NCBI GenBank assembly: GCA_018814305.1
Contig: JAHJAA010000083.1
Location: forward strand, 1-48,891
Length of the DNA: 48,891 bases
Reading direction: 5' to 3'
From: Pseudomonadota bacterium
Lineage (GTDB): Bacteria; Desulfobacterota; Desulfobulbia; Desulfobulbales; JAGXFP01
Part shown: positions 5,960 through 43,841 of the stretch, piece after piece
How positions within the stretch are numbered: the stretch's first letter is position 1
How the letters are laid out: every line of letters begins with the position of its first letter
Notes under the pieces: generated by a model
The model's database searches: none
What the model saw: the letters and a program-made list of their open reading frames with translations, nothing else
Told to the model about the DNA's origin: nothing
Translations under genes and position numbers: made by a program

Positions 5960-7735
5960 TTATAATTTACTCACGATAAAGTTATACATATTTTTAATGT
6001 CTTCGCTGATCTCTGCGGGTGGAATCAGGTCGATATAGTTTTGCAGTTTTTGTCGGCAAAGGCCGTTATCATTATTTATCAGGGGATCGACGGTATCTTT
6101 GACTTCAAGGCGACGGATACCATCATTATCGCCCGGATTGTTTACTGCCAGATGATCGGCCTGCGCCAGGGTGGCACTGTTAATTTCTGCCAATTTCCCG
6201 TGGTGGCTTAACGCTGTGTGGGAAAGTAGGTAGTTTTTGATCTCACGTCGGCTCCAGGCAAGGAGGTGAACCTTAAGCTTCTTCCCTGTTACAATTGTTT
6301 TGATCCTATCAGAATATTCCTTCCCAAGAACCTTTACTTTTGTTGTTGGATCAATGTTAAGTGGTGCTTCGTCTCTATCGCAAATCAAGAAAACCTGGGT
6401 TGTTGCGAGAGCACAATCAACCTTGCTCAAATTTTCTGCCCACTGGAGTTTTGCCTTAGCAAAAGACTCCGTTGTTGACCCATAGCTGGATGTTTTCTTA
6501 AAGGCATATACAGAGTTAAGTTTCGAAATGTCCAAATCTTTGCGAGCTGCGAGCAGGAGAAAAATATCCCAATCGTTATAATCATCAAGTAATGCCATGT
6601 GGGGAATCTTGGCACATACTTCATATTCGACAGAGGTAGCTCGGGAAAGGATGCTGAGACGATCGATCAACTGCTTTAATTTGTCGTCATCACGGATACG
6701 GCCTTTTTCAACGACCTTGATGGCGTGGAAGTCATTTGCGGTAATGGAGTCGAGCAAATGGGTGGTGGTAATCGTCTGCCCCTTCAGACTATTAAGAATA
6801 CGCCACAGGCGATCAATATTCTGATAATGCAGATGTGAATCAGCCTCATCGAGCAGGAAGAGGGTTTTTTCATCATCGAAAAGATCAATTAACGCGTAGA
6901 GGAAGAGAAGCTGGTATTCGCCATCGCTGAGCTGATCCAGCTCAAGGCCACCTTTTAAAATAAGTTTCAGGTTGGTTCTATCGATGAAGTAATTATTGTC
7001 GGCGGCCTGGGTGAAAAAGCTGACGGTAGGATTATCCTCAATATTTTGGGCGGGAATTTCTCCTTCCTCATCTTCTTGACCAGGGCGTGAGGATGAATAT
7101 GAAGCAGCGAATAATGTATCGGAAGTCAATGCTACCGCTTTCTTAGTGAGTGGCCTGTCAAAATCGTAGTCTGGATCAATATTGGTAGCTATAAAGCTCA
7201 TCAAAGAACGGAAATAGGGTGTTGAGCGCAGAGTGTCCGTCTCCATTCCTGTTTCTTCTTTTTTAAGCGCCTCTTCAACTCTTTGGACATACTGTTTGGC
7301 TACCTTGAATTTGATATGAAGCGTGGTAGATATATCATCAAGTCGTCCATCAGATACCTCTTCTTCATCGACATAACCCCCATCCCGGAGAAACTGCCTT
7401 ACGCGGCCATCTGAATACAAACAGGTAGCAAGAAATATCAGCAGTTTCGACCAGGTTTTGTCATAATAAAAGCAATCAAGGTTAAGCGACCTTCCAGCCC
7501 TTCGTTCTCTATTGAGATAAGTGCTGAATCCTTGAGAAAAATTTTCATTCTGTCCTGAAGAGAAACAAACAAGACGCAGATCATCAAAGTCATTTTTTGA
7601 CAGTTTTGTGGCGAAAATCGCTTGGAGGATACAAGATTTCCCTGAACCGTTTTCGCCGATCAAGGTTGCGATCTTACCAAAACTCAAGGTTTGCTGATCG
7701 TTATAAAGTGGATTTGGGGCTATTGTAAGATTCAT
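5960..7735 (-). CDS. AAA/ABC-type ATPase with OLD-like TOPRIM/DUF4435 C-terminus, inserted in the hsd operon
   Basis: A 591-residue ATPase placed between hsdR and hsdM with gaps of only 3 and 5 bp. Walker A GENGSGKS is at residues 27-34; an ABC-like signature LSDGEYQLLFLYAL and Walker B FLLDEADSHLH follow near residues 270-300, the layout of OLD/RecF-type ATPases. The C-terminal third has ICDRDEAPLN and LLAWSRREIKNYLL, which match the acidic D-x-D and W-x-RREIENYLL features of TOPRIM-like/DUF4435 nuclease tails. Type I loci are often interrupted by accessory ATPases of this kind (RloA-like), proposed to add a second antiviral activity. Whether it acts with HsdRMS or on its own cannot be told from sequence. 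Confidence 0.75.
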   Translation of the reverse strand: MNLTIAPNPLYNDQQTLSFGKIATLIGENGSGKSCILQAIFATKLSKNDFDDLRLVCFSSGQNENFSQGFSTYLNRERRAGRSLNLDCFYYDKTWSKLLIFLATCLYSDGRVRQFLRDGGYVDEEEVSDGRLDDISTTLHIKFKVAKQYVQRVEEALKKEETGMETDTLRSTPYFRSLMSFIATNIDPDYDFDRPLTKKAVALTSDTLFAASYSSSRPGQEDEEGEIPAQNIEDNPTVSFFTQAADNNYFIDRTNLKLILKGGLELDQLSDGEYQLLFLYALIDLFDDEKTLFLLDEADSHLHYQNIDRLWRILNSLKGQTITTTHLLDSITANDFHAIKVVEKGRIRDDDKLKQLIDRLSILSRATSVEYEVCAKIPHMALLDDYNDWDIFLLLAARKDLDISKLNSVYAFKKTSSYGSTTESFAKAKLQWAENLSKVDCALATTQVFLICDRDEAPLNIDPTTKVKVLGKEYSDRIKTIVTGKKLKVHLLAWSRREIKNYLLSHTALSHHGKLAEINSATLAQADHLAVNNPGDNDGIRRLEVKDTVDPLINNDNGLCRQKLQNYIDLIPPAEISEDIKNMYNFIVSKL

Positions 7736-7738
7736 TTT

Positions 7739-10144
7739 CTATAAGCAATGGTAAAGTTCATGTTGTAAATGCCGAAAGGCAGCCAGTACATTTGCCGGAC
7801 TTCCGCCGAATGCCTGGGAGGCATCCCGCGTAGTCCCCAAGCCTGACATTTTTATCAAACCGGGCATTCGGTCTCGGGCAAGTTCAGAAACCCCAGTCTC
7901 CTCATACCGATTCAAGACAAAATAGAGGAAATCTCGGGCTGGTTTCTGGTCGAATTGTTCAAAAAAGGCGGTTTTGGCCCTAGTTGCCTCGGCCCGAGCC
8001 CGCCTTTTTTTCATGGGTTGCTCAAAGGCAAGGAAGGCAAGCAGATCAAACAAATCGCTTTCTTCTGCTGCAAACATACGCCGCAAGGTGGCAAGTTGTT
8101 CGCCGTCAAAGCCTGTCTGGGCAAGTTTGTTGAGTAACATTTCCCGTTGGTCGGGGTCTGACCAGGTTTCGCGGAGTTCTTCTGCCGAAGAAAACAATCC
8201 CGGCAGTTTAACCATCAGTCGCTCAACGAACTGCTGAGCTGAAAGTGGCCGTCCGTTTTCATCAATATAGCGAATCTCAACATCAACAACCTTAAACTCG
8301 CGGGTCTCGCTAAGCCTGACGGTGAGTTTTTCTGTTGGCTCTCGCTCTCTGGTCTCAAGGCCTCCATGACCGGTTGAAAAGCCGCTATCGTCTTCTGCAG
8401 GATGTCCGGCATAGTCCGTTGGTTGAGGTTCATCCGTGCCTAAGGTTGCTGTTGTTTCAACGCTCACAGGGTCGCCATCCCAATCTTCATCATAAAAGCG
8501 ATTTGTCGCACCACGAAAATCAACAATGGTAAAATATTCTTTACCATCGAAAACCCGCGTACCGCGTCCCACGATCTGTTTGAACTCAACCATGGAGCCG
8601 ATAGAACGATCCAGCACGATGTTCCTGACATTTCTTGCATCCACACCAGTGGTCAGCATCTGTGAAGAGGTGAGAATTGTTGGAATGTCTTTATCATTGT
8701 CCTGGAAACGCTCAAGCAAGTCCCTTCCCGGCTTGCCCTCATCACTTGTTACACGAACACAGTAGTAAGGATCAGCAACAGTTTTGTGTTTGTTAATCAT
8801 GTCCCGCATGGTCAAGGCATGGCCCTGGTTCGTGCAAAAGACAATGGTTTTTTCCAGGGGATTAATGTTTGCAAGAATAGCCTTGGCAACCAGTTCTGTT
8901 CGCTGATCCGCAACAATTTTATTGTCAAAGTCGTTGGTCTCATAAACATCCTGATTTGATTCACCTTTGAGGATCTCATCATCACTTGTCAGAACCAGTT
9001 CGTCGAGATTGGTGCGGATGCGCTTCACACGGTATGGGGTGAGAAAACCATCGTTAATGCCGTCTTTTAAAGAATATTCATACACTGGTTTGCCGAAATA
9101 ATTGTATGTATCGATATTGTCTGTTCGCTTTGGTGTTGCAGTGAGACCCAGGTGTACTGCTGGTTTAAAATGATCGAGAATCGCCCGCCATGATCCTTCA
9201 TTATTGGCCGCACCACGATGACATTCGTCGATTATGATTAAGTCGAAAAAATCTTCAGGATACTCCTTGTAATACCCACCGATGTTCTCCCGTTCAGCAA
9301 TTGCCTGATATATGGCAAAAAAGATATGGGCATTGGTTGGGACAACACCATTGCGGCGTCTGACTTCATCTCCGTCAATCTTTAATAGATCTCTCTCATA
9401 TGGATTAAAGGTATTGATCGCCTGGTCGGCTAAGATATTACGATCTGCGAGAAAAAGAATACGAGGGCGACGTGACCCAGGCTCTTGCCGGTTCCAGCGA
9501 GCTAGAAACAGTTTGTGAACGATCTGGAATGCGATAAAGGTCTTCCCTGTCCCGGTTGCCAGGGTTAATAAGACTCTCGGCTTTCCTGCCCCTATTGCAT
9601 CCGTTGCAGCGTGAATCGCAAGCTCTTGATAGTAGCGGGGACGCATTCCCGCATCGAGATGGAAGGGAATATTTCTTAGTTCCCTACCCAAGTCGGTTGT
9701 CATACCGACACGGCGTTTTAACAGACCCTCTGGAGTCGGATAATTATCGACAAAATCCCCTTTTCCAGTTTCAAGGTCAAACTCATAGATTTGCTCGCCA
9801 TTCGTGGAATAAACAAAACGAACAGCGAGTTTTGTGGCATATTCGATAGCTTGCTGGAGGCCTTGAGTGGGGTGTGTTGACCGTTTTTTAGCCTCAATAA
9901 TAGCAAGGTGCTGGTTTTCACTATGCAGTAAATAATCAACAAAACAACGTGTGCCGCGTTGCCCGGCAGCAAGTTTTCGGCCATCGGTGAAATAATATTC
10001 ACGAATGACCTGTCCGCTTTCCCAGCCAGCCATGGCTAGTGCTGGATCGATGAAGTTTGCGCGAGTATCGGCTTCGCTCTGGTTGGTGTTAACTGAAGTA
10101 GTCACTTTTTGATAATCTTTTAAAATCGATTTCCCCGGCTTCAT
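7739..10144 (-). CDS. type I restriction endonuclease subunit HsdR
   Basis: An 801-residue motor and nuclease subunit that translocates and cuts unmethylated DNA. The N-terminal PD-(D/E)xK-type nuclease is visible as VDYLL followed by IIEAKKRS near residues 65-90. SF2 helicase motifs follow: Walker A ATGTGKT (about 195), DECH box, [16 protein letters not shown] and QIVGRGTR. An EcoEI-R-type C-terminal domain ends the protein. All motifs are intact, so the enzyme should be active with HsdM and HsdS further down the operon. Its ATG overlaps the stop of the upstream Abi gene in an ATGA-type 4-bp overlap, indicating translational coupling. Confidence 0.95.
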
Positions 10145-11037
10145 AATTGCCCTCTCCAGATCGGTCGATCCCGCCAGTCATCTGGGAAACCCACATTGCC
10201 TTCGCGTACCTCGGGATGTTTGGCCAGTAGCGCTCCCAACCGTTTCTTCCAGCTATGTGGATTGATCCGGTCCAGCAGGTAGGCCAGCATAACCAGGGTG
10301 TTATAAATCTTTTTGCCATCCGTCACATTGAAATTTTCCACAAGACCCGCCGGCTTCACCCTCGGCAGTTTCCAGGCAAAGGTGAATTCCCGGTTCCAGA
10401 GCCGGGCGTGGTGGGCGCAGAGGTTGCGCACGATACTCAAGTGATGCAGGAAGGAGGTCAGATTAACTTCGTCAAACCCGTAAGTCCGCGCAATGGCGTT
10501 GCGGTCCCGGCTATGACATAGGTTGGCGTACCACTTGGAAAGCTGACCCAGAGTCATAATTTCGCAGACGGCCCACAAAGGAGGCAACTCTTCATCGTAG
10601 GTGTCGAAATGCCGGATAAAGACCTCGGCGCTGACGCGAACCACATCTTTCAGGTTCTGCACATTGTCCGGGTGCGACCAGCGGCCCCGTTTAAATATGC
10701 CGCTGTCAAGATGGGCGTGGGGGCCATATGAATGGGAAAGATGGTAGGCCCACCGGGTACGCAGGGAGACTTCAAGGCGCTCGATGGCATCCATAACCAG
10801 CAACCGCAATTCCCGGTCGAAGATATAATGTTCGAGAACGATATTGAAGCTGGTGCCCGGCCTGAAACGATGGGTTGGATGGTCTTGCTCGTAGGGTAAC
10901 CAGTAGGCGGCCAGGCGGTAATAGTTCAAGTGGGAGAGATAGCGCTCGGCACGTACTGGATCTTCAATCTCCATCCCGCGCGAGACGAGAAGTCCCACCT
11001 GCTCGGCAAAGGTCTTCGGGGGTTTGTTAAAACGCAT
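10141..11037 (-). CDS. Abi_2 (AbiD/AbiF-type) abortive infection protein, HEPN fold
   Basis: A 298-residue Abi_2 family protein, expected to be a HEPN RNase or RNase-like sensor that stops growth of phage-infected cells. The family signature near the N-terminus is present ([18 protein letters not shown], about 31-48). The catalytic HEPN Rx4-6H motif is seen as RNLCAH at 204-209, followed by HARLWNREF; a second R...H (RTRWAYH, about 93-99) lies upstream. It is the first gene of the eight-gene tight operon and overlaps hsdR by 4 bp. Linkage to restriction genes is common for Abi_2, but a single transcriptional and translational unit with HsdR suggests co-control. Upstream DNA holds only gene remnants, so the operon promoter probably lies within 11040-11510. 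Confidence 0.88.
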
Positions 11038-11177
11038 TCGTCACCCCCTGAAAAAAAGTAACCCCCCATGGTGCGCAGAGCTTACGAGATGCGTGGGGGG
11101 TGTTGTTCGAGTATTGGTGTGTGACTTGAAAATATAATAAATTCATTTGTCCATAAATGCAAGGAGTTATTGCAGTC

Positions 11178-11269
11178 GCGGCATATGCCTCTTTGGTGTT
11201 GTGCATTTCCCCGTCCGAACTATACTTTAACAACGGCAGGAAAAATGATTGAAAATCGGGTACGGCCAA
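11178..11269 (-). pseudogene. fragment of an Mrr-type restriction protein N-terminus
   Basis: On the minus strand the frame reads AVPDFQSFFLPLLKYSSDGE and then MHNTKEAYAA, which is the opening of the Mrr N-terminal winged-helix domain (usual pattern: PDFQ...LPLL...DG..H...EA). The only start is a TTG at 11269, similarity stops after about 33 residues, and the following codons look unrelated. No Mrr catalytic domain occurs nearby. It is a broken leftover of a modified-DNA restriction gene, showing earlier content at this island position. Confidence 0.5.
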
Positions 11270-11334
11270 TGTATTTCTCCATGTCTTGTCGGTGAGATCC
11301 GTTATTCAACGATACTCTCACATGTACTTTTCAA

Positions 11335-11505
11335 CTATCCTGATTCACCACCTGTCTGCCCTTTTCGGGCAGCCAATATTTCTGCTTGCTGCTTACTGTT
11401 TGTTGGCGTATCCGGGATGGTCATTTCAATAAATTTGGCATCCAGCAAAGGCCTGAGCACTTGGTCCCGACTTAGTCCCAACTTGGTTCCTACCGGCCAT
11501 TCAAT
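11335..11505 (-). pseudogene. fragment of a RecG-like/AlbA_2 protein C-terminal winged helix
   Basis: A 56-codon frame, closed by stop codons at both ends and lacking a start, reads TKLGLSRDQVLRPLLDAKFI, then EMTIPDTPTNSKQQ. The last part matches the C-terminal winged-helix end of AlbA_2/HATPase_c_4 proteins often annotated as RecG-like helicases (usual pattern: LIEMTIPDKP.S..Q.YRLT). The intact AlbA_2 protein in the window (12032-13771) has a different C-terminus, so this is a piece of another such gene. With the Mrr fragment beside it, it records gene loss at this junction. Confidence 0.5.
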
Positions 11506-11512
11506 TCATCAC

Positions 11513-11941
11513 TCATAATTCACCCGACACTGTTGGCTTTCTCTCCAAGCTCTCTTCATCCCACATTTCCCGATAAAACCGGACATATTCAGTAGCTGCA
11601 TGTGGGTCAATGAACCAATAGTGACGGCAAAGCGTTTTGAACAGGGTCAGTGCCGTTTCGTCGAAAGCAACCTCAAGCAGTTGATCCAGCACTCGTTCTA
11701 TGCGCTGGCTATCATTGATCTTCCTGCTGAAGATCTCTCGCACTTCCGGCTGACACACGGCAAGGGTCTGTGTAACGGCTTCATTTCTCAGGGCTTGAAC
11801 CTGCCCGGCCAGTTGAAGAATGTCGTCGGATTCATTTACCATCAGGCTTTCGGCCCCATTGGCTTTTCCTGCAGGCTTAATGCTTTTGTCCCTGGCTAAT
11901 CTTCCCAGCTCATTATTCCCATTGTTTTTCCCGAGTATCAT
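11513..11941 (-). CDS. hypothetical protein, small acidic defence-island gene
   Basis: A 142-residue protein of unknown function, soluble and helical, without signal peptide. The C-terminal part (LFKTLCRHYWFIDPHAATEY, then FYREMWDEE) is aromatic-rich and looks conserved; I recall similar small proteins beside restriction or mobile genes but cannot name a family. ATG at 11941 is taken as the start, with an internal ATG at residue 34 as alternative. It lies 90 bp downstream of the AlbA_2 gene on the same strand and could share its transcript. Confidence 0.6.
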   Translation of the reverse strand: MILGKNNGNNELGRLARDKSIKPAGKANGAESLMVNESDDILQLAGQVQALRNEAVTQTLAVCQPEVREIFSRKINDSQRIERVLDQLLEVAFDETALTLFKTLCRHYWFIDPHAATEYVRFYREMWDEESLERKPTVSGEL

Positions 11942-12031
11942 TGAAGTAATACTCAGGTAGCATAAGCATAACTTATTTGATTTACTCAGTTTTAGCTAAT
12001 GGCCTCCACTTTTTCTTTTGCTTTCTTTTGC

Positions 12032-13771
12032 TCATTTATTGCTTTTATTAGCATCTTTGCCAGAAACGACCCACTGGGGAATTTTTCTCGTGCCGATATT
12101 TCTGATACGCTTCATTTTTCCAGAAAGAGCGTAAAGCAGGTTGTGAATTTTCTTCTTTTTCTGCACCTCAGTGAGGACATCTGGAAGTTTATTCATAAGC
12201 AGTCTGTCGATATCCCGTCTTGAAACCGGCCCGTGTTCACGGATCAGTTCGACAAGTATGTCCCTGTAATATTGATTATCGAACCCTTTATATCGAATAT
12301 GCTCGGCTTTGCCTCCTGTTGCGGCGGCAATTTCCGAGGAGATAAAGATATTGGGATACCGGCCTTCCACCACTCTCAGCGCCTTGAGTCGTTTATGTTC
12401 ATCCCTGGAGATCATCATCTTCTTTTGGACCTTGTCGAGGAGGATGACGGTCCAGAGGTCGAAATCCGTTTTTTCCATCAGCATTTGGGTATATTTTTCA
12501 TCAATGATTTCTCCCCTGATTGTCACCTTGACCCTTCCTGGATCGCTCAAGTCATAATCCGGTAAAGGGAAAAACCGTTTCATCTGGATATGAAACATTT
12601 TTTTGATCCCGCCGCCCTGGGTATCAATCATGTTGAGATTAACCATGGCATCGGCCAGAAATGAGTTACGGTAGACTTCCGGTGGCGCGTCCTGCCGGAT
12701 CACCGTCTCGACGCTGCCGGGCATGAAACTGCCCACATTGGCCAATAACAGAGATGAGGGCGTCTCCACCAGAATAATTCTGCCGCCCAGACTGTAGTCC
12801 TGGTGGGCAATGCAATTATGGAGGACTTCCCGTATTACCCACCGGTCATATTGAGAAATTTCCAAGGGAAAAAGGGTACCGCTTGGCAAATGCCGATAGG
12901 TCAAATTACGGACTTTTGCATAGACGGAATCCACATTGAGGAGAAAAGGCGGTCCGAAATGCTCGTAATCTTTCTCCCGATTCTGTTGATCTTTGAGTAT
13001 CCAGGAGATTTTCGCCACTGCCGGTGATATCAACGATGCTGATTCCGGCCTGCCAAGCAATAGAATGGCGGCATTGGTCACCTGGCCTTGAATGGTAAGC
13101 CTGATCTTATTCAGAAAGGTCGTGTCATCCCAGCTATCGACTTCACCGGTTTTGCGGGGAAATTTGCTTTTGTACTCGATTCTTGCCCTTGCGATGGCTT
13201 CAAGGCTAAGATCACTCAGGTGGGCATCCTTGCATATCGCCGCGGACCAGTCCACTTTTTCAATGGTCTCGGAAAGAATGGCGCTTTGCCGTTCCGGGCG
13301 AAGTTCCGCTAGACTGTCTCCCACACGCTGCCATGCTTTATCATGGGCATAAACAGGAAGGCGGGGGCGATGTTTTGGTACCCTGAAGACCCACACCGTT
13401 TTACCGGAATCTATGGTCAGGTAGGGATCAACCCGGAAGCTTTCCGAGTCCAAATTGGTGCATTTGCCGAGAATCCGCTGCTTGATGTTTTCCGGGGTAT
13501 AATCGTGAAGACTTTCGATCCCGACAATGCTGAGTGTCTTGTCCTTCACGCCGACAACCAAACAACCGCCCTCCATGTTGGCCAGGGCGGAGATATAAGA
13601 AATAATGTCTTCTCCTTTTTTGCCCGAGACCGCGTGCTTGAGATTTTTGAATTCTTTCCATTCACAACCCTCGTTTTCCTCTGGACAGAGGCTTTTGAGA
13701 TATGTGAAAAGTTCCTTTTCCTTCATTGCAAAACCTTCGTTGTGAATCCATCTACCAGATTCATCCTTCAT
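12032..13771 (-). CDS. AlbA_2 (Schlafen-type) domain protein with HATPase-like domain, RecG-annotated family
   Basis: A 579-residue putative transcriptional regulator or DNA-associated ATP-binding protein. Residues about 20-160 form an AlbA_2 domain with the typical LANMEGGCLVVGV and the following WQRVGDSLAEL. A HATPase_c_4-like region follows, with REVLHNCIAHQDY (about 325-340) and VETPSSLLLANVGSFMPG. The C-terminal 200 residues look like winged-helix segments rich in basic residues. ATG at 13771 overlaps the HTH gene stop in an 11-bp overlap; an internal ATG at 13726 has an AAGG site and is an equally good start. Such proteins are often called RecG helicases, but no helicase motifs are present. 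Confidence 0.8.
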   Translation of the reverse strand: MKDESGRWIHNEGFAMKEKELFTYLKSLCPEENEGCEWKEFKNLKHAVSGKKGEDIISYISALANMEGGCLVVGVKDKTLSIVGIESLHDYTPENIKQRILGKCTNLDSESFRVDPYLTIDSGKTVWVFRVPKHRPRLPVYAHDKAWQRVGDSLAELRPERQSAILSETIEKVDWSAAICKDAHLSDLSLEAIARARIEYKSKFPRKTGEVDSWDDTTFLNKIRLTIQGQVTNAAILLLGRPESASLISPAVAKISWILKDQQNREKDYEHFGPPFLLNVDSVYAKVRNLTYRHLPSGTLFPLEISQYDRWVIREVLHNCIAHQDYSLGGRIILVETPSSLLLANVGSFMPGSVETVIRQDAPPEVYRNSFLADAMVNLNMIDTQGGGIKKMFHIQMKRFFPLPDYDLSDPGRVKVTIRGEIIDEKYTQMLMEKTDFDLWTVILLDKVQKKMMISRDEHKRLKALRVVEGRYPNIFISSEIAAATGGKAEHIRYKGFDNQYYRDILVELIREHGPVSRRDIDRLLMNKLPDVLTEVQKKKKIHNLLYALSGKMKRIRNIGTRKIPQWVVSGKDANKSNK

Positions 13772-14423: not shown

Positions 14424-16103
14424 ATGAAAAAATTAAGTAACCGAGGAATTTTAAGGCTGATCGTCTCGACTTCTTTTCTGATTGCCCTGGTGCTGGCGGC
14501 CTTCAGTCTATTGATCGTAACACCGTCTTTCACCAAGATGGTAGAAAAGAACACCGAGCAGGAAGCAGTGCGCGTTGCCCGCCATCTCATGGAAATGCTG
14601 GAAACCAATGCCACCCTGACCAATGAGTCCATCAAGACGACCACTGCCTTCCAACACATGGCCACCAAGGTGGTCAATGATCTGGATGTGGTGAAGATCA
14701 AACTGTTCTCCAGTTTCGGAGAAACCATCTATTCCACCTCGAGTTTAGATATCGGCAAACTCAACGAGCACGACTACTTCCAGGATGTAGTCGCCCAAGG
14801 CAAGATCCTTACCAAGCATGTCAAGAAAGAAAACAAATCCCTGGAGGGGCAGGTATATTCGGTCGACGTCGTGGAAACCTATGTCCCCATCATGGTCGAG
14901 GGACAATTTCTGGGGGCCTTTGAGATTTATTTAGACATCACCAAGGAGGTGGAAGACCTCGGTTCCCTGCTGTTCATGCTGAATGGGGTCATGCTGACCA
15001 TCGCCTCTTGCCTCATCCTGGCCATGCTGTTCATTTCCTGGCGGGCCCTGCTGAATTTCATCGCCCAGGAACATGCTGAAGAAATGATCCTGGCCCAGGG
15101 GCGAGAACTTGCGACCAAGAATAGTGAACTCTCGGTGATTAATACAATCTCCCAGACCTTAAGTTCTTCCATCGATCTGGACAATCTCCTGCCGAAAATC
15201 CTGCAAACAGTGATCGACCGTCTGGCAGTTCTCCGCTTGGCCCGCAAGGGCGGCATTTTCCTCCTCAACGGTGATCGCCTTGAACTGGCAACCCACATCG
15301 GGCACCCGGAAGAGTTCCTGTCCCTCCACGAAAATCTGACCATCAATGACTGCCTCTGCGGGTTGGCAGCCAGGACCGGCGAGGTCGTCTATTCAGCCAA
15401 CTCCCACGAGGATGAACATCATACCATCTGTTATCCCGGCATGGACCCACACGGCCACATTATCATCCCGCTCCTTTCCGGGAAAAAGGTCGTGGGCGTG
15501 CTCTACCTCTATTTGCCCGCCGGGATAGAAGTCGACCGGAGCAACCGGGAACTGCTGAAAAGCATCGGCAATCAGATCGGCATGGCCGTTGACAACGCCC
15601 GGCTCTATGAAGAGACCAAACACCTTGCCCTGCACGACCCCCTGACCGGTCTGTCCAACCGCCGCTCCATGGAAACAAATCTTCAAAAGACCATCGGTAT
15701 GGCTGAGCGTTACCAACAACCCTTGACGGTGGCCATGCTGGATATCGATTACTTCAAAAAGTACAATGACACCCATGGCCATGCCGCCGGAGATAAACTC
15801 CTGGTCAAGGTGGCCAAAGCAATCACCAACTCAACCCGCATCACCGACCATCCCCCGGCTCGTTATGGTGGCGAGGAGTTCCTGATCCTGCTTCCGGCAA
15901 CCGAGCTTGAGGGTGCCATGATCCCGATGGAAAGGCTAAGGCAGACCATTGAAGAGGAATTGGAGATAACCATCAGTATCGGGCTGGCCCAGTACCGCCG
16001 AGGAAGTAACCGCGATGAATTGGTCAAGGCCGCTGATTCTGCCCTTTACCGCGCCAAAGAGAATGGCCGGAATCGGGTTGAGTGCTTTCACGCTGATGAA
16101 TAA
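14424..16103 (+). CDS. membrane diguanylate cyclase, periplasmic sensor-GAF-GGDEF
   Basis: A 559-residue enzyme expected to make cyclic di-GMP. TM1 (about 9-31) and TM2 (about 182-206) flank a periplasmic sensor of about 150 residues, probably Cache-like. A linker helix leads to a GAF domain (about 245-395) and a GGDEF domain (about 400-555) with the active-site loop ARYGGEEF (GGEEF at 482-486) and substrate residues LDIDYFKKYND. The RITD that would form the inhibitory I-site sits six instead of five residues before GGEEF, so product inhibition may be altered. The ATG at 14424 has no strong ribosome site. It precedes the hybrid kinase by 18 bp and the two probably form an operon. Confidence 0.9.
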   Translation: MKKLSNRGILRLIVSTSFLIALVLAAFSLLIVTPSFTKMVEKNTEQEAVRVARHLMEMLETNATLTNESIKTTTAFQHMATKVVNDLDVVKIKLFSSFGETIYSTSSLDIGKLNEHDYFQDVVAQGKILTKHVKKENKSLEGQVYSVDVVETYVPIMVEGQFLGAFEIYLDITKEVEDLGSLLFMLNGVMLTIASCLILAMLFISWRALLNFIAQEHAEEMILAQGRELATKNSELSVINTISQTLSSSIDLDNLLPKILQTVIDRLAVLRLARKGGIFLLNGDRLELATHIGHPEEFLSLHENLTINDCLCGLAARTGEVVYSANSHEDEHHTICYPGMDPHGHIIIPLLSGKKVVGVLYLYLPAGIEVDRSNRELLKSIGNQIGMAVDNARLYEETKHLALHDPLTGLSNRRSMETNLQKTIGMAERYQQPLTVAMLDIDYFKKYNDTHGHAAGDKLLVKVAKAITNSTRITDHPPARYGGEEFLILLPATELEGAMIPMERLRQTIEEELEITISIGLAQYRRGSNRDELVKAADSALYRAKENGRNRVECFHADE

Positions 16104-16121
16104 TACTTGGGGCTGTCAAAG

Positions 16122-19100
16122 ATGAAAAATCATCAATGGTTCAAATCCACCACAGCTCTTTCCATAATGCTTCTGGCCGCCACCTTTTTCGGCTTGAGCG
16201 ATCGACCAGCCCTGGCCGATCAGAGCCAGCCAATTCCCCCTGTTTTGAAATCGGCCAGTGAACTGGATTACCCGCCCTTTGCCATTGTTAAGGCCGATGG
16301 AACCGCCGATGGCTTCTCAGTCGACCTTCTCAAGGCCGTGGTCAAGGCGGCCAACCTGGAGGTGAACATCAAGGTCGGTCCCTGGCATGAGATCAAGCAG
16401 CAACTGACCGATGGTCTACTCGACGTACTGCCCCTGGTGGCTTATACCCCCGAGCGTGACAAAATATACGATTTCACCGTCCCCTACCTCGATATGCACG
16501 GGACGATTTTTATCCGGAAAGGTAAAACTACCATTCAGAGCGAGGCAGACCTCAAGGGCAAGGAAGTTTTGGTAATGCGCAATGATTCCTCCCATGAATA
16601 TGCGGTCGCCCACGACTTGACCAATCAACTGATCCTGACCGATACCTTTGAAGAGGCGATGCAGTTACTCTCAGAAGGCCGGCACGATGCCGTACTCTGC
16701 CAGCAGCTCATGGGTTTGCAAATCATCAAGAAACTCGGCATCACCAATGTGGTCAGCGTAGCGGCTGAAGATGAAATAAGCATAAAGCCTCGCGGGATCG
16801 CGGTTTCGGGCCTTGAACAAAAATTCTGCCTGGCGGTTCCGGAAGGACGGAAGGAGTTGCTGGCCTTGTTAAATGAAGGGCTGGCCATCGTGTTTGCCAA
16901 CGGGACCTACGACACCCTTTACAGTAAATGGTTTTCACCGATCCTGCCTGCTCCCTCCGTTCCCCTGACAACCCTAATCAAATCTTTGCTCACCGTCCTG
17001 GGACCAATCCTGCTTATTTTCGCGGTTTTGGGGATCTGGTACCTGAAAAGAGAGGTTAGCCAGAAAACCCAAAGTTTACGGGAGGAAATTACCGAACGGC
17101 AAAAATCGGAACTGGCCTTACGGGAAAGTGAGCATAAATTTCGCCTCCTCTTTGAAAATATGCTCAACGGTTTTGCCTATCACAAAATCATTACCGACAA
17201 CACCGGCACGCCCATTGATTATGAATTTATCGAGGTCAACGAGGCCTTTGAAAAACTCACCGGTCTCAAGCGGGAAAATATTCTCGGCAAATGCATCACC
17301 ACCATTCATCCCGGCATCGAAAAGATGGAATTCGACTGGATCGGCATTTATGGCAGGGTTGCCCTGACCGGTGAACCAGTCAATTTCGAACAGTATTTCG
17401 ACCCGCAAAAGCACTGGTATGCTGTATCAGCCTATTGCCCGCAGAGAGGCTATTTCGCTGTCACCTTCGAAAATATCACCGAGCAGAAACAAGCCACAAA
17501 AGAACTCCAAGACTTCATAAAATTTCATGAACAGATCATCCAATGCGCCCAAGATGGGATCATTGTTTATGACCGTGAACTCCGCTATCAGGTCTGGAAT
17601 CCGTTCATGGAACGGGTCAGCGGCAAAAAGGCCGCCGATGTCCTGGGCAAACACCCACTGGAGGTTTTTCCCTTCCTGGAAGAAGTAGGCGTAATCAGCA
17701 AACTTGAAAAGGCATTGCAGGGGGAAATTCCTCCCGCCGTGGATTTTCGGTATTCGTTACCCGAATCAGGGAAATCGGGGTGGACCTCGGACACTACCTC
17801 GCCACTGTTTGATGCCGAAGGAAAAATCATCGGAGTCATCGGGATCGTTCGCGAAATTACCCAGCAAAAGCAGGCGGAGTTGGCCCTCCAAGAAAAAACT
17901 GCCTTCCTGGACGCGATCATCGAAAGTTCCGCCCTGAGCATGTGGATTTCCGATGAGAAGGGAACCGCCATCAGGGCAAATCCCGCCTGCTTCAAGCTCT
18001 TTGGGGCGGCCGAAGAGGAGGTTATCAGTAAGTACAATCTCTTCCAGGATACGGTAATCAAGAAACAAGGATTCATGCCGATCGTGAAAGAGGTTTTTGA
18101 AAAAGGGGTGGTTGCCGACATCAAGCTTGAATACGATTTCGGAGCGGTTGACCACGTGGAAGTATCCCACCCCAGCCATAAGTTCATCAATTCTATTTTC
18201 ACCCCGATTCTCGATGACAACGACAAAGTGAGGAATGTCATTGTCCAGACCATTGACCTCACCGACCTCAAAAATATTGAACTGGAGAAAGCGAAACTGG
18301 AAAACCAGGTCCGCCAGGCCCAAAAAATGGAGGCCATCGGCACCCTGGCCGGTGGCATTGCCCATGATTTCAATAATATCCTGAGCATCATCCTCGGCTA
18401 CACCGATATGGCCATTGATGATGCTCCACCCGGCTCAAAACAGGTCGATGATCTGATCCAGGTCCAGGAAGCAGGCAATCGCGCCAAAGAGCTGGTTAAA
18501 CAGATTCTTGCCTTCAGCAGGCAGGATGAGATCAAACGGATACCGATCCAACTCCAATCACTGATCAAAGAGGCCTTGAAAATCCTGCGCTCCTCCATCC
18601 CCACAACCATTGAAATCCAGCATGAGATTGACTCGGAGTGTGGTGTGGTTTTGGTTGACCCGACCCAGGTTCATCAGATATTGATGAACCTCTGCACCAA
18701 TGCCAACCACGCCATGGAAAAAAGTGGCGGTATACTGAAGATAGAACTGAAAAGTATTTACATTGAGCAGGATACCCACGGGAAGGCGCTGAACATTAAA
18801 CCCGGGAAATATGTCAACTTAATCGTCTCCGATACCGGAACCGGAATCGGCCCGGACGTAATTAATAAAATTTTCGACCCCTATTTTACCACCAAGGAAT
18901 TCGGCAAAGGTACCGGGATGGGCCTGGCTATCGCCCACGGGATTATCACCAGTTACGGAGGATGGATCACGGTCGAGAGTGCCCTGGGAAAGGGAACAAC
19001 CTTTCAAGTTTACTTCCCGGTGATCAATCAACAGAGTTTACCGCTGATCAAAAGCATTGAAAATCTTCCCCGGGGTAAGGAGCGGATTCTCTTCATCGAC

Positions 19101-19454
19101 GACGAAGACCTCCTGGCCGAGATGGGGAAAGCCATGCTCGAGCGACTTGGCTATACCGTGACGGTTCGCCAAAGCAGTCTTCATGCCCTGACCACCTTCC
19201 AGAATAGTCCTGAGGCCTTTGACCTCATCATAACCGACCAGACCATGCCGGGCATGACCGGTTCCGATCTGGCCCGTCGCCTGATGCAGATCCGTCCTGA
19301 TATCCCGATTATCCTCTGTACAGGATACAGCACCCTTATTGACGAGGATTCCGCCAAGGCAATGGGGATCAGAGAGTTTGCGCTGAAACCACTGACCAAA
19401 GAAACATTAGCCACACTTATCAGAAAGGTTCTGAGAAACAACCATCCGGGTTAA
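16122..19454 (+). CDS. hybrid sensor histidine kinase with solute-binding sensor domain
   Basis: A protein of about 1110 residues. ATG at 16122 with GGGG nine bases upstream is chosen over a TTG 15 bases earlier. Order (numbered from this ATG): signal peptide (to about ALA, 32), periplasmic SBP_bac_3-type domain (about 40-275; YPPFAIVKADGTADGFSVDL), one TM segment (about 283-308), a coiled linker, three PAS modules (about 335-455, 465-580, 595-720), HisKA with phospho-accepting His748 (GGIAHDFNN), HATPase (NANHAM, DTGTGIG, GTGMGLAIA) and a C-terminal receiver with Asp1039 (IITDQTMPG). The sensor probably reads an amino-acid-like ligand, as in BvgS/ArtJ-type domains. No dedicated output regulator lies beside it; the cyclase upstream is a possible partner. 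Confidence 0.92.
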   Translation: MKNHQWFKSTTALSIMLLAATFFGLSDRPALADQSQPIPPVLKSASELDYPPFAIVKADGTADGFSVDLLKAVVKAANLEVNIKVGPWHEIKQQLTDGLLDVLPLVAYTPERDKIYDFTVPYLDMHGTIFIRKGKTTIQSEADLKGKEVLVMRNDSSHEYAVAHDLTNQLILTDTFEEAMQLLSEGRHDAVLCQQLMGLQIIKKLGITNVVSVAAEDEISIKPRGIAVSGLEQKFCLAVPEGRKELLALLNEGLAIVFANGTYDTLYSKWFSPILPAPSVPLTTLIKSLLTVLGPILLIFAVLGIWYLKREVSQKTQSLREEITERQKSELALRESEHKFRLLFENMLNGFAYHKIITDNTGTPIDYEFIEVNEAFEKLTGLKRENILGKCITTIHPGIEKMEFDWIGIYGRVALTGEPVNFEQYFDPQKHWYAVSAYCPQRGYFAVTFENITEQKQATKELQDFIKFHEQIIQCAQDGIIVYDRELRYQVWNPFMERVSGKKAADVLGKHPLEVFPFLEEVGVISKLEKALQGEIPPAVDFRYSLPESGKSGWTSDTTSPLFDAEGKIIGVIGIVREITQQKQAELALQEKTAFLDAIIESSALSMWISDEKGTAIRANPACFKLFGAAEEEVISKYNLFQDTVIKKQGFMPIVKEVFEKGVVADIKLEYDFGAVDHVEVSHPSHKFINSIFTPILDDNDKVRNVIVQTIDLTDLKNIELEKAKLENQVRQAQKMEAIGTLAGGIAHDFNNILSIILGYTDMAIDDAPPGSKQVDDLIQVQEAGNRAKELVKQILAFSRQDEIKRIPIQLQSLIKEALKILRSSIPTTIEIQHEIDSECGVVLVDPTQVHQILMNLCTNANHAMEKSGGILKIELKSIYIEQDTHGKALNIKPGKYVNLIVSDTGTGIGPDVINKIFDPYFTTKEFGKGTGMGLAIAHGIITSYGGWITVESALGKGTTFQVYFPVINQQSLPLIKSIENLPRGKERILFIDDEDLLAEMGKAMLERLGYTVTVRQSSLHALTTFQNSPEAFDLIITDQTMPGMTGSDLARRLMQIRPDIPIILCTGYSTLIDEDSAKAMGIREFALKPLTKETLATLIRKVLRNNHPG

Positions 19455-20699: not shown

Positions 20700-20729
20700 T
20701 TGACCGAAGCTTCTGCTTCAGACTATAAT
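20700..20729 (+). promoter_or_regulatory. sigma-70 type promoter with long leader before flagellin
   Basis: TTGACC (20700-20705), an 18-bp spacer and a perfect TATAAT (20724-20729). Transcription would begin near 20736, giving a leader of about 245 nt before the flagellin ATG at 20983. The leader has a small hairpin (gcaacc/ggttgt, 20866-20882) but I matched it to no known riboswitch. No sigma-28 consensus (TAAA-N15-GCCGATAA), the usual flagellin promoter, was found in this gap. Confidence 0.5.
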
Positions 20730-20982
20730 GGTATAGAAAGAAGATACTGCCGACCGTGTCAGGGAGGACCAGGGCAGCGTTCTCCGGAGGAGTTAGGAGC
20801 CGTAAAGAAATAAGATGGCCATATAGCGCCGGATTTTTCATTGTATTCAAGGTGCAAAAAGGAAAGCAACCTCCCCGGTTGTGTCCTGTTTTGCATTGAA
20901 GAAGACGATGAAAAAGACAAGTAAGATGACCATGTTATTTATTGAAGACTCCTTCGCACCTTCACAACAAGGAGGGTCAGCC

Positions 20983-22899
20983 ATGGTCACTTCATCTATC
21001 AAAGACGTTTCTGCGCTGTACGGACTTGCTTCCCTGCAGAAAACCAGTAGATCCCTATCCCAATCTCTGGAAAAGCTGGCCACCGGCCGCAGAATCAACC
21101 GAGGAGCGGATGACGCCGCCGGGATGACCATCGCCGATTCCCTGGAAAGCCAAAAACGGGGATACGCCCAGGCCATCCGCAACACGGTTGACGCCATCGC
21201 CCTGGTCCAGACTGCCGATGGGGCCATGGCGGAGATGGGCTCAATCATCCAGGATATCCGCACCAAGGCCCTGCAAGCCGGTTCCGCCTCCCAATCTCCG
21301 GAATCACGCCAGGCCCTCCAGGCCGACATCAACCGCTCCCTGGAATCGCTGACCAAGATCAGCGAAACCACCTCCTATAACGGGCAGCACCTGCTCTCCG
21401 GAGAATTCAGCAACCGAGAATTTCAGGTCGGCAGCGCCTCCGGAGAAACGATTAGGGTCACCATCGGCGACATCCGACCGGACACCCTGGGCCGAACCTC
21501 GCTTGGATCTGACCAATCTACCCCGGCGTCCCCGACTCGTCTTCCTTCCGACCTTAAACTGCAAAGCGACTCCACAACCATCCAGGGATCTACCCTGGAT
21601 AGCGGCTCTTCCCTTGCCGCCGGCACCCAGATTCAGGGGGGCTCCACCCTTGGTTTCAATCTCACTGATACCGCGTTGTCAGCCGACATTACGGTTACCG
21701 ACCGAACTGTGCTCCGGGCTGGATCAACGCTGGCGGCGGGAAGCATCATCGGCCGTGGAACAACTGTCGGTGGGGATATTAAACTTGCCGAGACCATTTC
21801 GACTGCGGAACCATCAACCCTGGCCTCGGCTTCTACCCTGATCACAGGCTCGACGCTGGCCGCTGGCTCCAGGCTCAGTTCAGCCATGACCATCAACGGC
21901 AACTCATATCTCGCTGGAGAAACCCTGGCCAACGATATTACCCTGAACGAAGATCTAACCATGAGCGGTGGATTGGCCCTGGCAGTCGGTTCAGAACTTG
22001 AGGCTGGCTCCACTATTGCCCAAGGATCGACGGCGGGCAATGGAATAACCCTGGCCGAAACCGCAACCATGCAGATCGGTACCGAGCTTACGACGGGCTC
22101 GGTGATCGCTGATGCAATCGGCACAAATCTAATGTCAGGCTCTTTGATTGGCGGGGAGTTCAATCTGACCGAAGAAACCGCCGTGACCCGCGACATGGAC
22201 CTGGCCACCGGCTCACTGCTCTCCGCCGACAGTACCCTGGCCGGCGGGTCAACCCTCGGTGGCCGGGCAACCATCGCCACCGAGCTTGCCGTCAGTCGCC
22301 CGATGACCCTGGGAGCCGGCAGTGTCCTGGAAGAAGGAACCTTGTTGGCCAAGGGCACAGTCCTCAGCCAGGATACCAGAATTCAAGGTGGTAATGTCTT
22401 AGCGGCAGGCACCGTTCTGACCGGTGACACCATCACCGAAGCCGTTACCTTTCTGGGTCGAGACCAGACCATCCAGGCCGGATCACGCCTGGCAATCGGC
22501 TCCACCCTGGCCCCCAGCCGCCCCACCTCAGACCAGATGCCTAAAACAAATACCATAGGCGACGCGCCCCTGTCTCTGATCAGTTTAACGGAAATCGATG
22601 TCACCGGAATGGCCGGGGCTCAGGATGCGATCAAAGCGGCCGACCAGGCCCTGACCCAACTGAATCGAACCCGAGCCGATCTGGGCTCGACCCAGAACCG
22701 GCTGATCTCCGGTATGGCCAACCTGTCGGTGACCATGGTCAACACGGCGGCAGCGGAATCCACCCTGGCGGATCTCGATTTTGCCGAGGAATCGACCAAC
22801 CTGGCCACCTTCCGCATCCTCCAGAAGGCGCAGATTTTCGCCCAAGTCCAGGCGGGAAATGTCAAAGGGGCCAATATTATGAGTTTGCTTCAGGGCTAA
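20983..22899 (+). CDS. flagellin with hexapeptide-repeat (beta-helix-like) variable domain
   Basis: A 638-residue filament subunit. ATG at 20983 has AAGGAGGG at the right distance. Residues 1-165 are the flagellin D0/D1 N-terminus (LEKLATGRRINRGADDAAGM) and about 545-638 the C-terminal D1/D0 helices ending SLLQG. Between them, about 175-535, is a nearly unbroken series of about 55 six-residue units of the form [LIV]-[AGx]-x-[GD]-[ST]-x, for example LAAGST, IGRGTT, VGGDIK, LEAGST, LAKGTV. This is the consensus of left-handed beta-helix hexapeptide repeats, so the surface domain is probably a long solenoid. No fliD, fliS or other flagellar gene is adjacent. It ends tail-to-tail with the KamA-like gene, the stop codons sharing bases. 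Confidence 0.9.
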   Translation: MVTSSIKDVSALYGLASLQKTSRSLSQSLEKLATGRRINRGADDAAGMTIADSLESQKRGYAQAIRNTVDAIALVQTADGAMAEMGSIIQDIRTKALQAGSASQSPESRQALQADINRSLESLTKISETTSYNGQHLLSGEFSNREFQVGSASGETIRVTIGDIRPDTLGRTSLGSDQSTPASPTRLPSDLKLQSDSTTIQGSTLDSGSSLAAGTQIQGGSTLGFNLTDTALSADITVTDRTVLRAGSTLAAGSIIGRGTTVGGDIKLAETISTAEPSTLASASTLITGSTLAAGSRLSSAMTINGNSYLAGETLANDITLNEDLTMSGGLALAVGSELEAGSTIAQGSTAGNGITLAETATMQIGTELTTGSVIADAIGTNLMSGSLIGGEFNLTEETAVTRDMDLATGSLLSADSTLAGGSTLGGRATIATELAVSRPMTLGAGSVLEEGTLLAKGTVLSQDTRIQGGNVLAAGTVLTGDTITEAVTFLGRDQTIQAGSRLAIGSTLAPSRPTSDQMPKTNTIGDAPLSLISLTEIDVTGMAGAQDAIKAADQALTQLNRTRADLGSTQNRLISGMANLSVTMVNTAAAESTLADLDFAEESTNLATFRILQKAQIFAQVQAGNVKGANIMSLLQG

Positions 22900-24680
22900 A
22901 AGAAATACCAGATAGTGTCATAGTCCGAGACACTCTCCCCAGCCGCCTCCAGCCTGGTCAAATAATCCAGGATCGGGACGTCCGGGGTGGCATAGGTTCG
23001 AATCGAGGTGGAGATGTTCTTCTCCCAGGAATAAAACTCATACATCCTGGCGCCGTCGGGCATGATGGCGACCAAATCCCGATGTTCCCGGGACTTCAGA
23101 TAATTCTTGCCCAGCCGGGGAACATTGAAGACCGCCTCGTCGGTCCGCTCAAGCCCCGGCAACAAGCGGGCCTCTTCCTGCTGTTCCTGGAGAAGCCTGG
23201 CGATGGGGACCCGATAGTTTCGGGTTTCCGCTTTACCCTTGGTATTAAAGGTATAATAGGGATCAATCCCCACCAGCCGCACCAACCGCCGCAGGGCACA
23301 GGCTTCAAACCGCCTGGAGGCGTAAAAGGTGTAGACCATCTGGTTATAGACCGGCACCCCACGTTTCCGCAAGAGGTCCACCGCCTGGACCACCTCGGGA
23401 GTGATCTCGTAAACGTGCTGAACATGGGTGACCACCGCAATTTCCCGGCGCCCCGGCACCCGGTATTTGCCGATGATATCAGCCAGTTGCTCGGTCATCC
23501 GCATGGGCATGGTGACCAAGGTCCGGGTCCCGATCCGAATCCGGTCCACCGAAGGAATCTCCGCCAACTTCCCAAGAATATTATCAATGACCCCATCGCC
23601 CATGGCCAAAGGGTCCCCGCCGGTGACCAGAACCTCATGAATCCCAGGATGCTCCCGAATCCAATTGATCGCCGCATTGATCTGCTCCATACCGGCAAAG
23701 GCCCCGCTGGCCATGGCATCATCGATCTCCCAATTCCGCTGGCAGTAGACACAGATCTGCGGGCAGGTATTAAATGGCTTCAGGATACAGATGGCCGGAT
23801 AACGCCGGGTAATCAAGTCAAAGGGTGAGGTATCTTCCTCGCCCATAAAGTCCAGAGCGGAAGTATCCATGACGGCCACATGCCGAACATAATCCAATGG
23901 CGGCAGAACCTGGGCCCGAAGGGCGGCATCGCGCCCCCCCGGCTCGTCGTCGAGGAGGGAGAGATAATACGGGGTAATACTGAAGGGCAGGGAATGATTC
24001 ATGGCTTCCTGAAGCCCGACCCTTTGGCCATGATCCAGATGAACCAAATCTTCCAACCTGGAAAGATCATCAATAATATTGTTTACTTGCCAGCACCAGT
24101 CCTGCCATTGCTCCTCCGAGGCCCCCATCAGCCGACAAATCCGCTCACGCCTCAATCGACGCCGTTCGATGGCCTCCTTACTCAGACCACTGGAATAAAG
24201 TGCCATCCGGCGATCAACCTCAGTCCGGAGATGATCGAGTTGCCCGGATCGCTCTACTGCCGCTTCTCGTCCCCGCAACGTCCCAAACGGGGTGACATAA
24301 AGATCCTCCAGGGCCTTACTGGAACCCCTGCCCTGAATCCCCTTCAGAATATGCAGAAGATCGGCAAAAAAGGCTGGGGAAAGATCCGGCCGGGAGCGCC
24401 CCAGGGCCAAATCATGGAGCGCCTGAGCCATACTGAAACCAGCCAACTCATCGGAGCGCTCCTTGAGCATATTCCGCAAGACCTGACCGCAGTCCCTGAT
24501 CCGGGCAATGGCGGTAATCGACTGATCCGCCGATTCCCGAGCCGCCTCAAATTCCATGGTTGTAAACAGTCGGGTCAAACGGACCCGCAAGGCTTCAAGA
24601 TCCGAACATTGGCGGGCCACTTCAAAGACCTGGGGTGACCTCTTAATCAATTCTTCGGGTTGGAATAAGGAGAGATTCAT
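22896..24680 (-). CDS. KamA-family radical SAM protein with long N-terminal extension
   Basis: A 594-residue protein related to lysine 2,3-aminomutase and EpmB. The radical SAM cluster motif CPQICVYC (Cys306, 310, 313) is intact, followed by EVLVTGGDPLAMGD, typical of the family. A GKNYL segment near residue 530 could hold the PLP lysine. The usual enzymes are about 340-420 residues with the cluster near residue 120; here about 180 extra N-terminal residues, mostly helical, precede it. The substrate is unknown: lysine, a beta-amino acid product, or a protein lysine are all possible. The ATG has GAGGA nine bases upstream. The gene is divergent from the YihY gene and convergent with flagellin. 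Confidence 0.85.
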   Translation of the reverse strand: MNLSLFQPEELIKRSPQVFEVARQCSDLEALRVRLTRLFTTMEFEAARESADQSITAIARIRDCGQVLRNMLKERSDELAGFSMAQALHDLALGRSRPDLSPAFFADLLHILKGIQGRGSSKALEDLYVTPFGTLRGREAAVERSGQLDHLRTEVDRRMALYSSGLSKEAIERRRLRRERICRLMGASEEQWQDWCWQVNNIIDDLSRLEDLVHLDHGQRVGLQEAMNHSLPFSITPYYLSLLDDEPGGRDAALRAQVLPPLDYVRHVAVMDTSALDFMGEEDTSPFDLITRRYPAICILKPFNTCPQICVYCQRNWEIDDAMASGAFAGMEQINAAINWIREHPGIHEVLVTGGDPLAMGDGVIDNILGKLAEIPSVDRIRIGTRTLVTMPMRMTEQLADIIGKYRVPGRREIAVVTHVQHVYEITPEVVQAVDLLRKRGVPVYNQMVYTFYASRRFEACALRRLVRLVGIDPYYTFNTKGKAETRNYRVPIARLLQEQQEEARLLPGLERTDEAVFNVPRLGKNYLKSREHRDLVAIMPDGARMYEFYSWEKNISTSIRTYATPDVPILDYLTRLEAAGESVSDYDTIWYFF

Positions 24681-26508: not shown

Positions 26509-27675
26509 ATGCATCCCAACTCCACAATCCTGGAAATGCTGTCCTTAATCTATGAAGATCTGGACATCGATACCATTGAGGAACGATTTGTCTCCCTGGT
26601 CGCGGAACTTTTCCCCTTTGACCGAGTCGGCCTCTTCTTTGTCAAACATAAAAAAGGGCTGCTCCAAGGCAAATTATGCCGGGGTTTTGGCGAAGGATCG
26701 ATCAGCACCATCGAGGCGCCCATCGATGGCCAGTATCTCATCACCAGACCACTGGTCACCGGTTTTCCGGTATGGAACGAATCAAGCAGCAATGACCCCT
26801 TTCTATGCAACCTGAACCTGAACCACTTCGCCCTGATCCCGGTGGTCAACCGAAAACGGATCCCCTGCTGGCAGATCACCGATTGCCGGGCCGAGGACTG
26901 CCCTGCCTACGGTCGACAATGGCTGCGCTGCTGGCTGGTTACCGGGACAAAATGCAAGGACAAGATCCAACGTTCTGTGGAAGGAAAAACATCACTGTGT
27001 ACGTTATGTCCCGTGTTCACCAGTCAGGACAACAACGCAGTGGAAGGCATTATGCTGGTGGACGGCCAGACCCCCATCGACGACGAAACAGTGACCATTC
27101 TCTCGATCATCGCCCACGGAGTGGGTTCGGCGATCAATAACTCAAAAAAGTACACCAATGTCTTGCGCGAGTCTATTCGTGACGACTTGACCGGGCTCCA
27201 TAACCGACGGTATTTTAATGAACGACTCCTGGACGAAATCGAAAGAGCCCGCCGGTATGGTGGAAAAATCAGCCTGCTCTTCGGTGATATCGACCACTTT
27301 AAGAATATCAACGATCAGTATGGCCATCCCACCGGTGACGCGGTTTTGCAGATGATCGCTGCTATCTTCAACAAAAAATTACGCCACAGCGATATTGTCG
27401 CCCGCTATGGAGGTGAAGAATTTGCGGTTCTGCTTTTCGACAACACCCCGGAACAGGCCAAGACCATTGCGGAAGGGCTTCGACTGGCAGTGGAGGAATC
27501 GACTCTACCCACTAAGGATAAGATCGGCGTCACCATCAGTTTCGGAATCGCCTGGATCTCCAAGGAGACCTCAACCCTGGAAGGACTCATCGGCAAAGCT
27601 GACAAGGCCCTATACAGCGCCAAGGCCCAAGGGAGGAATCGGATATGCATGGCCCCATCTCAGGAAGAGGCATAA
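26509..27675 (+). CDS. diguanylate cyclase with cysteine-rich GAF-like sensor
   Basis: A 388-residue soluble cyclase. The N-terminal GAF-like domain (about 5-210) carries a cysteine-rich insert with Cys120, 126, 131, 141, 149, 164 and 167 (CWQITDC..., CPAYG, RCW, LCTLCPVF), a spacing that suggests a metal or Fe-S site or redox switch. The GGDEF domain (about 222-385) has the active loop ARYGGEEF (301-305), the LFGDIDHFKNIND metal/substrate loop and a canonical I-site RHSD (292-295) exactly five residues before GGEEF, so the enzyme should be active and product-inhibited. AAGGTG precedes the ATG. No membrane segment. It stands alone, about 150 bp after the YihY gene. Confidence 0.9.
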   Translation: MHPNSTILEMLSLIYEDLDIDTIEERFVSLVAELFPFDRVGLFFVKHKKGLLQGKLCRGFGEGSISTIEAPIDGQYLITRPLVTGFPVWNESSSNDPFLCNLNLNHFALIPVVNRKRIPCWQITDCRAEDCPAYGRQWLRCWLVTGTKCKDKIQRSVEGKTSLCTLCPVFTSQDNNAVEGIMLVDGQTPIDDETVTILSIIAHGVGSAINNSKKYTNVLRESIRDDLTGLHNRRYFNERLLDEIERARRYGGKISLLFGDIDHFKNINDQYGHPTGDAVLQMIAAIFNKKLRHSDIVARYGGEEFAVLLFDNTPEQAKTIAEGLRLAVEESTLPTKDKIGVTISFGIAWISKETSTLEGLIGKADKALYSAKAQGRNRICMAPSQEEA

Positions 27676-43375: not shown

Positions 43376-43480
43376 GGGAGTGAGGAGTGAGGGGTGAGGG
43401 GTGAGGGGTGAGGAAAAATACCTTCCAACCGTAAACACCACAACTTTAGGCACTTATAACTTAAGGCACTTTAGGCACTT
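43373..43480. repeat. heptanucleotide tandem repeat and ttaggcactt repeats
   Basis: Starting at the LapD stop codon, about six TGAGGGG-like units run from 43373 to 43413, three of them perfect. A second set of three ttaggcactt / ttaaggcactt units lies at about 43446-43480. Both sit in the gap between convergent genes. The first set could vary in length by slippage but is outside the coding frames except for the stop codon. A lone relative, taggcactttt, occurs near 37744. Confidence 0.7.
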
Positions 43481-43484
43481 TCCG

Positions 43485-43832: not shown

Positions 43833-43841
43833 CTTTCAACC

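Follow-up and report, generated by a model that had tools for sequence, protein, structure and literature searches.

The flagellin gene at positions 20983 to 22899 of the DNA analysed here (the window, 48,891 nucleotides, is one entire contig, G000:C59, of the 4.15-Mb assembly of a Desulfobulbales-type bacterium) encodes a protein in which a core that elsewhere lacks any surface domain carries a long solenoid of hexapeptide repeats at the tip of domain D1. We consider it rather likely that this protein, P0001, is an accessory filament subunit, and that its solenoid, probably a left-handed beta-helix (LbH) set on a small-flagellin core, matches the surface lattice of the major flagellin and stiffens or thickens the filament. 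The gene runs on the + strand from the ATG at 20983 to the stop at 22899 and encodes 638 residues. Its parts, together with the signals upstream of it, are the following:

20700 to 20729, + strand: candidate sigma-70-like promoter, TTGACC-18-TATAAT, 11 of 12 positions (a consensus match only; two such sites in the region against a chance expectation of 1.1)
20970 to 20976, + strand: ribosome-binding site AAGGAGG (AAGGAGGGTCAGCCATG), 6 bases 5' of the start codon, as read from the sequence
20983 to 22899, + strand: accessory flagellin gene, 638 residues and stop, with Flagellin_N and Flagellin_C matches
20983 to 21477, + strand: N-terminal D0/D1 half, residues 1-165, which groups with small flagellins devoid of an outer domain
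21478 to 21558, + strand: linker, residues 166-192, with no regular hexads (repeat segmentation, alignment)
21559 to 22527, + strand: hexapeptide-repeat solenoid, residues 193-515, at the D1 tip; about 53 hexads, which in an LbH would make about 18 coils with 18 residues each
22528 to 22596, + strand: linker, residues 516-538 (repeat segmentation, alignment)
22597 to 22896, + strand: C-terminal D1/D0 half, residues 539-638 (Pfam, core tree, alignment)

The two ends of the protein are those of a flagellin. Namely, Flagellin_N (PF00669, residues 11-141, 4.6e-38) and Flagellin_C (PF00700, residues 550-636, 1e-16) both exceed the Pfam cut-off, in keeping with the standard D0/D1 ends of the original prediction, and the model core matches known flagellins with Z scores of 19-23 in structure comparison. 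Could the gene nevertheless be a decaying paralog without a role in the filament? It is located apart from flagellar genes, the D0 N-terminus is divergent and devoid of the usual INTN motif, and no flagellar promoter was recognised, i.e. searches for sigma-28 and sigma-54 consensus sequences upstream of the gene gave no convincing site. We regard this as very unlikely, however, given the full-length frame, the intact D0/D1 halves, the good ribosome-binding site and the inward positions of the solenoid, discussed below, which are still nearly free of charge.

As for the surroundings of the gene, its 3' end overlaps by 4 bases the 3' end of a gene on the - strand (22896-24680) for a KamA-family radical SAM protein, which scores well over the subfamily cut-off but reaches none of the 2,3-aminomutase equivalog cut-offs. 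Two GGDEF proteins and a hybrid sensor kinase are encoded at 14424-19454 and 26509-27675, and since they lie no more than about 7 kb from the flagellin, the latter is flanked by c-di-GMP signalling genes. At 41474-48857, a LapD-like protein (LapD_MoxY_N, GGDEF, EAL) on the + strand adjoins a 1671-residue protein on the - strand near the contig end, with cadherin-like, VWA and RTX repeats, and the two look like a c-di-GMP-controlled large adhesin system. Finally, the genes at 5960-13771 on the - strand, for an HsdR-like type I restriction subunit, an AAA ATPase (AbiEii/OLD-like) and a Schlafen/AlbA_2 protein, are likely a defence island.

The variable region between the D0/D1 ends follows a six-residue period. 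In particular, the autocorrelation of L, I, V, M and F at lag 6 over residues 161-550 is 0.38, more than 7 standard deviations above shuffles (10,000 shuffles, mean 0.00, sd 0.05, maximum 0.19), and aliphatic autocorrelation is also present at lags 12, 18, 24 and 30. The region contains 30 copies of the strict motif [LIVM]xx[GDN][STA]x, whereas shuffled versions contain 7.8 on average (sd 2.5), and in a best-path segmentation of the region 53 of 65 steps are exactly six residues long, with L-A-A-G-S-T as the commonest residues at the successive hexad positions. We also ranked 295 segments of 150 residues, drawn from long frames at three loci of the same genome, the window being one of the three, and the four segments from this region came out on top. 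Originally, about 55 hexads had been predicted to run almost without interruption for about 360 residues, within residues 165-545. The repeat is real and comprises about 53 hexads, but the regular run is shorter, extending for about 320 residues from around residue 187 to 514 or 515, and both flanks (165-190 and 515-545) are linkers; what is more, it contains slips of 4, 5 or 7 residues near 223-232, 310-315, 375-383 and 479-491. A search for a tandem array at the DNA level in the repeat region found none, and the repeats are therefore old and diverged.

What fold would such a repeat adopt? Judging from its sequence, the best-supported fold of residues 193-515 is probably a left-handed beta-helix. 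Namely, Hexapep (PF00132) exceeds the Pfam cut-off in P0001, all nine members of an alignment of the domain match both Hexapep and the eIF2B LbH model, and the protein displays the tandem-hexad pattern of the LbH superfamily, [LIV]-[GAED]-x2-[STAV]-x. Against the PDB, the domain profile finds 44 sequences at E<=1, including gamma-carbonic anhydrase, PglD, DapD, QdtC, GlmU, LpxA, LpxD, eIF2B and CcmN; 43 of the 44 belong to families that we take to be LbH, and the sole other match is the last in the list (E 0.96). The distribution of charge points the same way. In an LbH, position +4 of the hexad faces inward. With the hexad phase set by the aliphatic residues alone, the six positions of the P0001 repeat hold 0, 5, 12, 15, 1 and 7 charged residues, so that both the aliphatic position and position +4 (1 of 40 charged, p=0.0007) are nearly charge-free, while G, N and D are enriched at +3. 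In the pooled homologs, 22 of 455 residues at +4 are charged, as opposed to 91 expected.

Structure prediction, which had been proposed as a check, was less decisive. Two AlphaFold2 models, each run with nine sequences, have strands every six residues throughout, at mean pLDDT values that are low both for the full-length protein (49) and for the domain (53), and no confident non-solenoid fold or disorder was seen. Since confidence is low even in the ordinary D1 helices (the best 10-residue block reaches 81), these models neither prove nor refute the fold, and they do not settle the geometry and handedness of the coils, which we infer from the repeat pattern. The top structural match of the low-confidence domain model is LpxA, an LbH protein (Z 14.6, but rmsd 12.2); Foldseek gave no match of that model in the PDB at E<=0.001, as expected at such confidence, and no significance attaches to the absence of bactofilins and other LbH families from its list. 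The remaining matches (VIA, Foldseek) are mostly right-handed helices and pentapeptide-repeat solenoids, with Z of 10-13 and rmsd of about 3, and they would suit a right-handed beta-solenoid, bactofilin-like or autotransporter-like, with the same role at the surface. Such a fold is in our view unlikely, in that the signature of LbH is just such a strict six-residue phase, with G, N or D at +3 and small residues at +4, and the sequence profiles match LbH families almost exclusively. In addition, AlphaFold2 is biased toward beta-solenoids for perfect repeats (PMC11795689), for which reason we give little weight to the domain model either way. Pfam does not list the bactofilin family for P0001 or its domain relatives, an absence that by itself excludes nothing. 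The predicted left-handed beta-helix is partly supported, namely by the sequence evidence, but it finds no confident counterpart in the structural models.

With LbH proteins such as LpxA, GlmU, gamma-carbonic anhydrase and the LbH domain of eIF2B, the P0001 solenoid shares the hexad pattern and the profile matches; it differs from them in being longer than most, in sitting on a flagellin and in its complete lack of histidine (residues 190-515). LbH enzymes act via histidines near trimer interfaces, and as no catalytic or metal-binding histidine is present here, the solenoid is unlikely to be an enzyme of this type. Each 18-residue coil of an LbH rises by about 4.8 angstrom, a geometry that would give the domain the shape of a rod about 8-9 nm long. 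Alternatively, one might picture no rigid rod at all, but a flexible, Ser/Thr-rich region of low structure that serves as a glycosylation platform. Indeed, Ser and Thr account for 88 of the 326 residues at 190-515, the AlphaFold2 confidence is low, and the genome encodes one MptE-like/Maf-type protein (PF01973), from a family that presumably includes flagellin glycosyltransferases. We find this quite improbable, however, because an aliphatic six-residue period, a length that stays fixed among divergent relatives and the exclusion of charge from inward positions would hardly be expected if there were no packed core. That said, a rod does not preclude glycosylation, and the single MptE-like/Maf-type protein may leave room for glycosylation of Ser and Thr on the solenoid.

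The ancestry of the core is best seen when the insert is set aside. Besides a larger flagellin, many relatives encode a solitary one, about 280-340 residues long, whose halves have no insert between them. In a tree built from the joined D0/D1 halves, all inserts left out, P0001 falls in a clade with 16 of these small flagellins (L054-L069; a 17-row set, support 100/99) and is sister to L065 (support 100/98). These are its closest core relatives and, like it, are encoded by solitary genes; unlike it, they have no outer domain. Between the D0/D1 halves there are 373 residues in P0001 and 7-31 in the small flagellins. At the junction the alignment reads ...SGETIRVTIGDIRPDTLG, solenoid, ..LTEIDVTG in P0001 and ...SGETISVSIGSVTPDQLGGG NLSELNV in L065, i.e. 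the insertion is in the D1 tip loop. The simplest account is that the small flagellin of this lineage gained a solenoid; in a tree of the solenoid itself, the P0001 copy sits on a long, unplaced branch, which points to no particular donor. Would P0001 not rather be a shorter derivative of the major flagellin, P0002, that has lost the Flagellin_IN (D2-like) domain? The solenoids of the two do align in register from end to end, but we give this idea very little credence: the P0001 core is 57% identical to that of L065 and lies within the well-supported clade above, its grouping with the cores of solenoid flagellins is rejected (AU p=0.0075), and no other small flagellin is encoded in the host genome. 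The genes next to P0001 were not found to recur next to the small flagellins of relatives, except for generic kinase matches. Among the hits that were opened, no second full-length flagellin of the same make-up was found in the order. One candidate for a second chimera, of 636 residues (G624:C39, L075 2710-5145), was rejected, being the tail of a full-length larger flagellin with one in-frame stop; the stop may reflect a pseudogene, a sequencing error or recoding.

The solenoid as such is not restricted to P0001. P0002, the other flagellin of the same genome (806 residues, contig C64, adjoining FliD and a FliS-like gene), has the same solenoid in register, with 38% identity over the solenoid and the C-terminal part. 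The search for further flagellins with this hexad profile, which had also been proposed, was run as a profile search. It detected the solenoid in 19 of 58 relatives (46 of the 58 have any flagellin-type protein); within the order, 38 of 258 genomes have it, and so do six families in other parts of the phylum. The named contigs that bear it come from Desulfobulbaceae, Desulfobacterales and Deltaproteobacteria assemblies. An alignment scan of genome contigs with two rows gave no match, and with six rows it gave eight relatives. A search of viral contigs gave no match, and plasmids yielded nothing beyond weak, partial matches, to hypothetical proteins of Skermanella. Shorter stretches occur in the genome taken as Desulfurivibrio alkaliphilus AHT2, whose cells are called non-motile in its paper. 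The original prediction knew of no flagellin of this design. Indeed, we found no description of a flagellin with a hexapeptide repeat, beta-helix or solenoid in the open-access literature, but the design extends to P0002 and to many relatives. What is unusual in P0001 is a solenoid on a core that elsewhere has no surface domain.

The larger solenoid flagellins (P0002; L008, L010-L012, L014, L034, L037-L043) resemble P0001 in having a homologous, in-register solenoid in the variable region, of about 325 residues in many of them. Across most full-length relatives its length is 323-329 residues while identity to the P0001 copy is only about 33-40%, and this constancy despite strong divergence suggests selection on size. 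They differ from P0001 in their D0/D1 cores and in a domain of about 190 residues between D1 and the solenoid, which contains a Flagellin_IN match in the three tested (P0002, L034, L027) and which is absent from P0001. The flagellins of Campylobacter and Helicobacter (6x80, 9ygu, 9yh1) share D0/D1 with P0001 and the next domain with the larger relatives only, and no hexad solenoid was matched in them. A second, divergent set of solenoid flagellins (L013, L015, L016, L027, L028, L029; starts e.g. MTINVNIDAYSLAA, MSITLNTNPSGEVA) occurs alongside the major type in several relatives.

Giant flagellins (PMC6248924) likewise carry large inserts in their variable region, some of which contain internal repeats, and that study's tree includes a giant flagellin of Desulfotalea psychrophila. 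At 638 residues, P0001 is below their size criterion of more than 1000 residues. Moreover, their DE region repeat is a different, longer unit, and neither beta-helix nor hexapeptide is mentioned there. Some relatives studied here do exceed 1000 residues, with open frames of 1196-1405 residues in G031, G050 and G606; frames of 1024-1405 residues with several solenoid matches (L017/L030 in G050, L019/L033 in G031, L020/L035 in G012) fall in the giant-flagellin size class. Very large hook-associated proteins occur as well, namely an 839-residue FlgK-like and a 1101-residue FlgL-like protein (L005 5373-11213, G000:C18), both with similar-looking repeated segments in their long middle regions.

How, then, might P0001 act? 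The host genome has one FliD gene, which suggests a single filament system, and P0001 thus probably shares a filament with P0002; this pairing rests on binning, as the assembly consists of 92 contigs with 1.74% estimated contamination. P0001 would pass through the export apparatus that also serves the major flagellin, would be assembled under the same cap, and would join the latter flagellin in the filament as a minor subunit. Its core would descend from the solitary flagellin type of about 290 residues that has no surface domain in relatives, and its D1-tip loop would carry a solenoid of about 320 residues like that on the larger flagellins of the order. If LbH, the roughly 18 coils would form a rigid rod that either sticks out from the filament or lies against the filament surface. 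The likely benefit would be an accessory subunit that matches the solenoid lattice of the major flagellin, and so a stiffer or thicker filament. A stiffening or surface-lattice role seems most likely by analogy, because outer domains in other bacteria stabilise filaments and help swimming in viscous surroundings (PMC8931119, PMC10256154). The adhesion and the evasion of phages that had also been proposed originally would be further possible roles. More tentatively, and with somewhat less than even confidence, we suggest that the Desulfobacterota possess an undescribed class of filaments with a surface of LbH rods, in which an accessory flagellin independently gained the rod and so keeps the beta-helix coat continuous.

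The outer domains of flagellins vary greatly, and their role in motility in viscous media has been shown only recently (PMC8931119, PMC10256154). If our reading is true, the filaments of widespread sediment and groundwater bacteria would, with their beta-helix of fixed length, represent a new surface architecture. What is more, P0001 would be a natural example of a rod placed on an otherwise rod-free core, and it would offer, with its small relatives, a matched comparison between flagellins that have and that lack the rod.
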